Below are positions 43,612 to 45,202 of a stretch of DNA of 64,000 bases, piece after piece. The first letter of the stretch is position 1. The number at the start of each line of letters is the position of its first letter. Below the pieces are notes generated by a model. It was not told the origin of the DNA. It saw nothing but the letters and a program-made list of their open reading frames with translations, and made no database searches. The stretch is from Aquibaculum arenosum (GTDB taxonomy: Bacteria > Pseudomonadota > Alphaproteobacteria > Kiloniellales > DSM-21159). The stretch is taken from positions 62,001 through 126,000 of the forward strand of contig NZ_JARHUD010000006.1 in the NCBI RefSeq assembly GCF_029222965.1. The letters run 5' to 3'. The position numbers and the translations under genes were made by a program.

Positions 43612-43640
43612 TTGACGACGAAGAGTGGCAATGCTAGGTC
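43612..43640 (+). promoter_or_regulatory. Candidate promoter of the metY riboswitch transcript
   Basis: TTGACG (43612-43617) and TAGGTC (43635-43640) are separated by 17 bases. Transcription would begin about seven bases later, right at the start of the first SAM-II-like aptamer. The -10 match is modest. Confidence 0.45.
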
Positions 43641-43645
43641 ATCAA

Positions 43646-43707
43646 CAGCGCCGATTTGAGTGAGACAGCTTGCGGGCGCTATAAAAGTACGGCTAAAGCG
43701 TTGGGAG
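43646..43707 (+). promoter_or_regulatory. SAM-II riboswitch aptamer (first copy) upstream of metY
   Basis: P1 stem AGCGCC (43647-43652) / GGCGCT (43675-43680) flanks a loop with GATTTGA and CAGCTTGC. The 3' strand is ATAAAAGTACGGCTAAAG (43681-43698). This matches the known alphaproteobacterial SAM-II architecture: GAUUUG, CUUGC in loop 1, then an A-rich strand ending in GCUAAA that forms the pseudoknot. It would lower metY expression when S-adenosylmethionine is abundant. An intrinsic terminator follows immediately, so transcription control is likely. Confidence 0.82.
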
Positions 43708-43739
43708 CACCGCCCGGCCTTGGCCGAGCGGTGTTTTTT
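43708..43739 (+). terminator. Intrinsic terminator coupled to the first SAM-II aptamer
   Basis: CACCGCCCGGCC / GGCCGAGCGGTG form a 12-bp stem with one C-A mismatch, followed by TTTTTTG and another T run. It sits between the two aptamers and before metY, so it may be the riboswitch expression platform. Confidence 0.75.
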
Positions 43740-43772
43740 GTTTTTGCTGCGGACTGGCCGGCCCAACCGGCT

Positions 43773-43821
43773 CCCGGGATTTGAGGGGGCAGCTTGCTCC
43801 GGGTCACCAAATGCTAAAGCG
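43773..43821 (+). promoter_or_regulatory. Second SAM-II-like aptamer (tandem copy) upstream of metY
   Basis: P1 CCCGG (43773-43777) / CCGGG (43799-43803) encloses GATTTGAG and CAGCTTGC, the same loop words as the first copy, and is followed by TCACCAAATGCTAAAGC. The 3' strand has a shorter A-rich part than the first copy, so it may be a variant or degenerate aptamer. A 5-bp hairpin CCACG-GCAT-CGTGG follows at 43822-43835. The metY ribosome site is ~60 bases further. Confidence 0.6.
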
Positions 43822-43891
43822 CCACGGCATCGTGGAGCCCCTCGCCCGCTGGCGGACTGCGCCGGAGACGTGAACACAAGAGGAGTGAACC

Positions 43892-45202
43892 ATGAGCCAG
43901 AATTCCCGAAATCCCGAAACCCTTGCCTTGCATGCCGGCTATCGCGCCGACCCCACCACTGGGTCGGTCGCCGTGCCGATCTACCAGACAACCTCCTATC
44001 AGTTCGAGAGCACGGACCATGCGGCCGATCTCTTCGCGCTGAAGGAACTGGGCAACATCTACACCCGGATCATGAACCCGACCTGCGACGTGCTGGAAAA
44101 GCGCGTTGCGGCCATCGAGGGCGGCGCCGTGGCGCTGGCAGTGGCCTCCGGGCAAGCCGCGTCCGCCTACTCCATCCAGAACATTGCCCAGGCCGGCGAC
44201 AACATCGTCAGCGCCACCGACCTCTACGGCGGCACCTGGAACCTCTTCGCCCACACGCTGCGCCAGCAAGGCATCGAGGTGCGGTTCGTCGATCCCTCCG
44301 ATCCGGAGAATTTCCGCCGGGCCACCGACGCCAAGACCCGCGCCTACTATGCAGAGACGCTGCCCAACCCGAAGCTGCACGTCTTCCCGATCGGCGAGGT
44401 GGCCGCCATCGGGCGTGAAGTGGGCGTGCCCCTGATCGTGGACAACACGGCCGCCCCGATCATCTGCCGGCCGCTCGAGCACGGCGCCGCCGTGGTCGTC
44501 TATTCCACCACCAAGTACATCGGCGGCCACGGCACCTCGATCGGCGGCCTTATCGTCGATGGCGGCAACTTTGATTGGGAAGCTCACGCCGAGCGCTTCC
44601 CGCTGCTGACCCAGCCGGACCCCAGCTATCACGGCGCCGTCTGGACCGAAGCAGTGAAGCCGCTCGGCCCCATCGCCTATGGCCTCAAGGCCCGGGTCAC
44701 GCTGCTACGCGACCTCGGCGCGGCCATGAGCCCCTTCAACGCCTTCCAGTTCATCCAGGGGCTGGAGACCCTGCCGCTGCGCATCCGCGAACACAGCCGC
44801 AACGGCCAGCAGGTGGCGGAGTGGCTGCGCGACCGGCCGGAGGTGGCGCGGGTCATCTACCCCTCCCTGCACGAGGATGCGGAGCAGCGCCGGCGCGCCG
44901 AAACCTACCTGAAGGGCGGTTTTGGCGGTCTGGTCGGCTTCGAACTGAAGGACGGTATCGAGGCCGGCCGCGCCTTCATCGACGGGCTCGAGCTCCTGTA
45001 CCACGTGGCCAACATTGGTGACGCGCGGAGCCTGGCGATTCATCCGGCCACCACCACCCACTCGCAGCTAACGGCGGAAGAACTGCAGGCCACCGGCGCG
45101 ACGCCGAGCTACGTCCGCCTTTCCATCGGCATCGAGCACATCGACGACATCCTCGCCGATCTCGACCGCGGCCTGGCCGCCGCCGCGAAGGCAGCGGGCT
45201 GA
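43892..45202 (+). CDS. metY: O-acetylhomoserine sulfhydrylase
   Basis: A 436-residue PLP enzyme that adds sulfide to O-acetylhomoserine to give homocysteine for methionine synthesis. It begins [29 protein letters not shown] and has [27 protein letters not shown] and PLP-Lys208 in [11 protein letters not shown]. The length (~430) fits MetY rather than the shorter MetZ/MetB types. GAGGAG lies six bases before the ATG. The upstream SAM-II-type riboswitch(es) agree with a methionine-pathway role. Confidence 0.95.

Follow-up and report, generated by a model that had tools for sequence, protein, structure and literature searches.

The leader of the metY-like gene of Aquibaculum arenosum contains two SAM-II-type aptamers in series, here called E1 and E2, and their presence is confirmed in the window, i.e., the 64,000-nucleotide stretch of DNA that was analysed. 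The tandem arrangement is of a known kind; what is new is E2, a SAM-II variant whose regulon is broad. The reading we favour, as probable though by no means assured, is that two aptamers of the SAM-II family act in succession on metY: a canonical E1 followed by its terminator, and E2, with a split P2 pseudoknot, acting on translation.

Two aptamers and a terminator in the metY leader

The elements of the leader are listed in Table 1. E1 carries the P1 stem and the GATTTGA, GCTTGC and GCTAAA core of SAM-II, as read from its letters, and matches the Rfam model RF00521 with 32.2 bits (E 1.9e-4 for the 6 kb searched, 2.7e-5 for the genome). The gathering score of this model, 36, is exceeded by related copies of E1, e.g., those at loci L110 (38.0) and L101 (41.5). 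The hairpin of the terminator between the aptamers has a folding energy of -23 kcal/mol (z -3.8), and none of 200 shuffled sequences was equally stable. A strict scan for promoters and terminators returned nothing and missed this element, probably because its stem is interrupted. A P2 pseudoknot contiguous with the core of E1 gave z 0.0 in a shuffle test on 36 related copies, which vary little, and an antiterminator pairing was without support among close relatives (z 0.5 in the shuffle test).

Since the terminator lies directly behind the aptamer, we infer from its anatomy that E1 is a canonical SAM-II riboswitch and, like SAM-II in general (PMC1273637, PMC9373788), a transcriptional OFF switch. 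Binding of SAM to E1 would stabilise P1 and P2, the terminator would form, and transcription would stop. The original prediction had likewise proposed that the first aptamer may act on transcription, which is supported by the terminator; a T-run is present at this place in 36 of 43 related tandems.

E2 begins about 30 bases behind the tail of the terminator (at 43773), and is followed by a gene whose product belongs to the PLP enzymes of cysteine and methionine metabolism; PF01053 (Cys_Met_Meta_PP) was among the top families for query A4, which includes the first 230 residues of the metY product.

Table 1 Elements of the tandem leader and the gene below it (positions in the window)
Feature	Position	Strand	Evidence
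E1, SAM-II aptamer	43647..43699	+	RF00521 32.2 bits over 43638-43716; sequence; kept before metY in relatives
E1 parts	P1 AGCGCC 43647-43652 / GGCGCT 43675-43680; GATTTGA 43653-43659; GCTTGC 43668-43673; GCTAAAGC 43692-43699	+	read from sequence
Intrinsic terminator between E1 and E2	43703..43745 (stem 43703-43738, T-rich tail to 43745)	+	fold; T-runs of relatives
P0 hairpin, GGCCGG/CCGGCT, adjoining the 5' side of E2 P1	43756..43772	+	fold; own-locus complementarity
E2 core	43773..43820	+	RF00521 18.0 bits; R1 72.5 bits (training sequence); invariant pocket motifs in 24 copies
E2 core parts	P1 CCCGG 43773-43777 / CCGGG 43799-43803; GATTTGA 43778-43784; GCTTGC 43792-43797; J TCACCAAAT 43804-43812; GCTAAAGC 43813-43820	+	sequence
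E2 outer P2 (P2a), 5' strand GGGGGC, within the P1 loop	43785..43790	+	pairs with 43837-43842; covariation
E2 inserted hairpin, CCACG 43822-43826 / CGTGG 43831-43835, between the P2 halves	43822..43835	+	conserved inner pairs; fold
E2 outer P2 (P2a), 3' strand GCCCCT, 3' of the inserted hairpin	43837..43842	+	covariation
metY ribosome-binding site GAGGAG, 7-12 bases 5' of ATG 43892	43880..43885	+	sequence
metY-like gene encoding a 436-aa PLP enzyme of Cys/Met metabolism	43892..45202	+	ORF; PF01053

A family of E2 elements in Alphaproteobacteria

E2 scores 18.0 bits against RF00521 (E 1.3 for the 6 kb searched), below the gathering score of 36, and on the Rfam score alone it is indistinguishable from chance level. 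It is nevertheless accepted because it is conserved in relatives. When the leader was compared by BLASTN with 58 relatives, many genomes of the order showed the tandem, and E2 was also seen alone at other sites, two of them in the window's own genome. A covariance model of the E2 core, termed R1, was built from 24 copies, nearly all of them from metY leaders; it matches E2 in 41 of 61 genomes at the level of the order and, at that of the class, in 82 of 385 at E <=0.001 or about 67 of 385 at >=41 bits, the latter number being counted from the match table. Outside the class, 398 genomes of the phylum gave two weak matches only, and the family is nearly entirely alphaproteobacterial. Copies of E2 that precede genes other than metY and stand outside the training set score 42-64 bits. 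The original prediction of a pair of SAM-II-like aptamers separated by a terminator is supported.

The E2 collection comprises 134 distinct elements, of which 43 lie behind a SAM-II-like element. The pocket motifs GATTTGA, GCTTGC and GCTAAA show no variation in the 24-copy alignment and very little across the wider set. The element thus has the core motifs and P1 of SAM-II, but neither a score at the gathering level, which only 5 of 62 E2-type relatives pass, nor a contiguous outer P2, and it is a SAM-II-related subtype rather than a plain member of RF00521. Descent of E2 from E1 by recent duplication was considered and rejected, as E2 copies at different genes are closer to each other under R1 than to the adjacent E1. 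Because R1 separates E2 copies (38-81 bits overall) from adjoining E1 copies (~20-36 bits), E2 is a distinct and old lineage.

Covariation points to a P2 split by an inserted hairpin

In E2, GCTAAAGC is followed by a hairpin (typically CCACGG..CCGTGG) and immediately behind this by a strand that can pair with the portion of the P1 loop adjoining AGCTTGC on its 5' side. As alignment of the full element with MAFFT misaligned the hairpin region, the helices were tested with anchored segments. Pairing of the two P2a strands within their own loci reached 1326.8, compared with 1175.0 +/- 22.9 for shuffled partners (0/1000 reaching the observed value), and for loops without GGGC, 367.8 compared with 307.3 +/- 14.5 (0/1000). 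A sliding window placed the peak of P2a pairing just 3' of the hairpin (z 5.3-5.6), with adjacent windows about zero or negative; the hairpin end was picked with a small bonus for P2a pairing in this test, and with no such bonus in the 1000-shuffle test. The inner pairs of the inserted hairpin, which were tested as the ones that copy selection did not demand, are conserved in 78 and 76 of 89 distinct copies (shuffle maxima 60 and 64). Because the distal strand behind the hairpin co-varies, whereas a contiguous P2a immediately after GCTAAAGC, as in plain SAM-II, is without support (z 0.6), covariation over the family shows that P2 of E2 is split into two halves by the inserted hairpin.

In this architecture, the SAM pocket would be held by the inner half of P2, GCUUGC/GCUAAAGC, and the hairpin in the 3' strand closes the outer half, GGGGGC/GCCCCU. 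Because every pocket motif is conserved, E2, like E1, is most likely a SAM sensor. The features that distinguish E2, namely the inserted hairpin and the outer strand of P2, had been overlooked in the original prediction; its interval, 43646-43821, should be extended downstream to ~43842, the pseudoknot strand of E2 being 3' of the hairpin.

The P0 helix adjoining P1 is conserved in position, and its own-locus complementarity in the family gave z 3.7 (0/300 shuffles). Two further pairings were rejected: that of the P0/P1 5' strand with the 3' arm of the hairpin, as an anti-sequestor (z 1.0), and that of the P1 3' strand with the spacer or the ribosome-binding site (z 0.9).

Genes downstream of E2

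Across the class, E2 sites precede cysG, cysH, metN, metQ, metE, metF and metY/metZ genes, and the proteins encoded below them include siroheme synthase, PAPS reductase, sulfite reductase, MetN-type ABC ATPases, a MetQ-type lipoprotein, MetE, MTHFR, homoserine succinyltransferase and PLP enzymes of cysteine and methionine metabolism. These genes are targets of SAM feedback. If SAM is a ligand of E2, then a large group of sulfur-assimilation and methionine genes under SAM control is largely unannotated, the Rfam threshold capturing ~8% of the sampled E2 copies.

No E1 accompanies the other two copies in the same genome (L002 1509-1586 and L071 701-780, on contigs C25 and C27), which lie upstream of MetN-like and MetQ-like genes. 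At both, a tiny reading frame lies directly behind E2 (MHRCPPSP and MRYHHF), and the main gene begins ~150-250 bases further on. Many copies of E2 without an immediate downstream gene are followed by a short reading frame with a cysteine-rich end (MTCCCP, MTTCCP, MTPMRKSILCCCR, MNTLPIPVTSASCYCRMGTCC); such frames were seen at L144, L147, L162, L163, L164, L141, L151, L175 and others, with start codons 42-63 bases past GCTAAA. At least two cysteines among the last eight residues occur in 19 of 36 short frames behind E2 and in 37 of 592 background short frames, kinship among loci being only crudely removed in this comparison. These frames have the look of cysteine leader peptides placed under an aptamer of the SAM-II type.

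Further arrangements were observed at single loci. A sulfur-assimilation cluster on the minus strand of L078 (region 1675-2960) holds two full tandems of SAM-II-like element, terminator and E2, one before the siroheme synthase gene and the other before the PAPS reductase gene, and the first aptamers of both have a variant core, GATTTCG..GCTAAG. At L063, L064, L028 and L070, E1, terminator and E2 precede an OsmC-like gene, and metY follows a few hundred bases later, so that the tandem may control a two-gene unit. SAM-II of the E1 type also stands at L091, L092, L094 and L095 before genes for exported proteins which, by the look of their sequences, resemble sulfonate-type ABC substrate-binding proteins.

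E2 and the ribosome-binding site

The ribosome-binding sites of genes below E2 are more complementary to the inserted-hairpin region of their own locus than to that of other loci (z 4.4, 0/300; 80 thinned loci). The complementarity is centred on the hairpin loop and 3' arm (z 3.7, 0/400; control segments z ~0), and persists when metY loci are left out (z 3.3). Because the hairpin matches the ribosome-binding site of the genes below, E2 probably acts on translation, and at the present metY leader such control is plausible by resemblance to the family. In the window, the match is 4 bp long, CCTC 43840-43843 (the 3' end of P2a and C43843) with GAGG, and locking the E2 aptamer in the folding model leaves the exposure of the site about the same (0.38 to 0.34). 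The original prediction that the second aptamer may act on translation is thus plausible at the level of the family, but folding of the window's own leader predicts no change.

The short match in the window, together with the RF00521 score of 18 bits, could also be taken to mean that E2 is a degenerate or non-binding copy of SAM-II, retained because it stabilises the RNA or serves as an insulator, with E1 as the sole regulator of metY. This is quite improbable, as the pocket motifs are invariant in 24 copies, the helices co-vary, and standalone copies of E2 are found before metN and metQ in the same genome and also across the class.

In the mechanism we favour, transcripts that escape E1 would come under the control of E2 at the start of translation. 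The hairpin loop, the 3' arm and the 3' strand of P2a are complementary to the ribosome-binding site, and the masking strand is a strand of the aptamer fold; masking would therefore compete with folding of the aptamer. SAM is expected to lower metY expression at both steps, a sign that follows from the logic of the regulon and differs from the outcome of simple folding.

As to the sign of control by E2, folding points to ON, while the regulon and E1 point to OFF. E2 could be a genetic ON switch, in which the ligand-bound P2a and hairpin free the ribosome-binding site and translation depends on the ligand; combined with E1, such a switch would give a band-pass or a two-input gate. The sequence that would mask the ribosome-binding site is located in the 3' arm of the hairpin and the 3' strand of P2a, so that masking and the aptamer fold exclude each other, and among 60 loci the locked aptamer exposes the site in 17 and clearly hides it in none. 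However, the controlled genes are those of SAM feedback, E1, which shares the leader, is arranged as an OFF switch, the predicted effect at the window's own locus is nil, and the folding model omits tertiary contacts and kissing between the loop and the ribosome-binding site; such kissing could reconcile the folding result with an OFF sign. We therefore regard an ON switch as unlikely. A wider proposal, to which we would give similarly little weight, is that E2 is an undescribed SAM riboswitch subtype and the chief RNA element by which many alphaproteobacteria regulate sulfur assimilation, that its bound fold frees the ribosome-binding site, and that, in leaders where it is the sole aptamer, it controls whether the cysteine-rich leader peptides are translated, so that SAM and cysteine would be read jointly.

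Comparison with known systems

The tandem of SAM-II and SAM-V in Pelagibacter (PMC9481103, PMC11508383) resembles the metY leader in that a SAM-II aptamer with a terminator lies upstream and a second pseudoknotted SAM aptamer lies toward the ribosome-binding site. This common order (PMC9481103, PMC6061858) would be explained if E2 were a SAM-V aptamer and the leader an instance of the known tandem. However, the SAM-V model (RF01826) gave no match at E2 up to E 10, and a search of 20 E2 loci with a limit of E 5 was negative as well. The layout differs as well: in SAM-V, P3 follows P1, between P1 and the A-minor strand, and the ribosome-binding site lies within P2a (PMC6061858), whereas in E2 the hairpin lies between the P2 halves and the ribosome-binding site ~37 bases past P2a. 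Identity with SAM-V was rejected for lack of a match and is exceedingly improbable. Against SAM-II, E1 and E2 both stay below the gathering score of 36 bits.

Tandems of two SAM-II aptamers are known, too. Forty-four such doublets have been published, with a terminator first and a second platform of the RBS type in some (PMC9481103), and, as here, both aptamers precede one gene; in the accessible part of its text, neither an inserted hairpin nor a subtype of its own is mentioned for the second aptamer, and the published doublets may overlap with the E2 loci. The original prediction had suggested that the leader would be a different arrangement from SAM-II with SAM-V; in view of these doublets, this is right only in part. 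The ordinary and the split-P2 aptamer in one leader can be compared on the same gene.

A regulon study from 2014 placed SAM_alpha only in Rhizobiales and Rhodobacterales, mostly before metY (PMC4239095). In the open-licence literature, supplementary lists aside, no description of a split-P2 subtype of SAM-II and its regulon was found, nor, for SAM-II, of a pseudoknot with a regulatory hairpin inside one strand. The long-loop form of SAM-II (RF01726; PMC2864571) shares with E2 a SAM-II core with altered loops, but the model lacks a hairpin between the halves of P2, and the form was described from Bacteroidetes and marine sequences; its best score on E2 is 30.8 bits (L160; gathering score 44), and it has no match at E2 of the window. 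SAM-II/SAM_alpha itself (RF00521; PMC1273637) has P1, GATTTGA, GCTTGC, GCTAAA, the P2 pseudoknot and the metY/metA context in common with E2, whereas in E2 a hairpin separates the outer P2 from the core, and the strand joining P1 and P2 reads CANCAA instead of UUAAAcAA.
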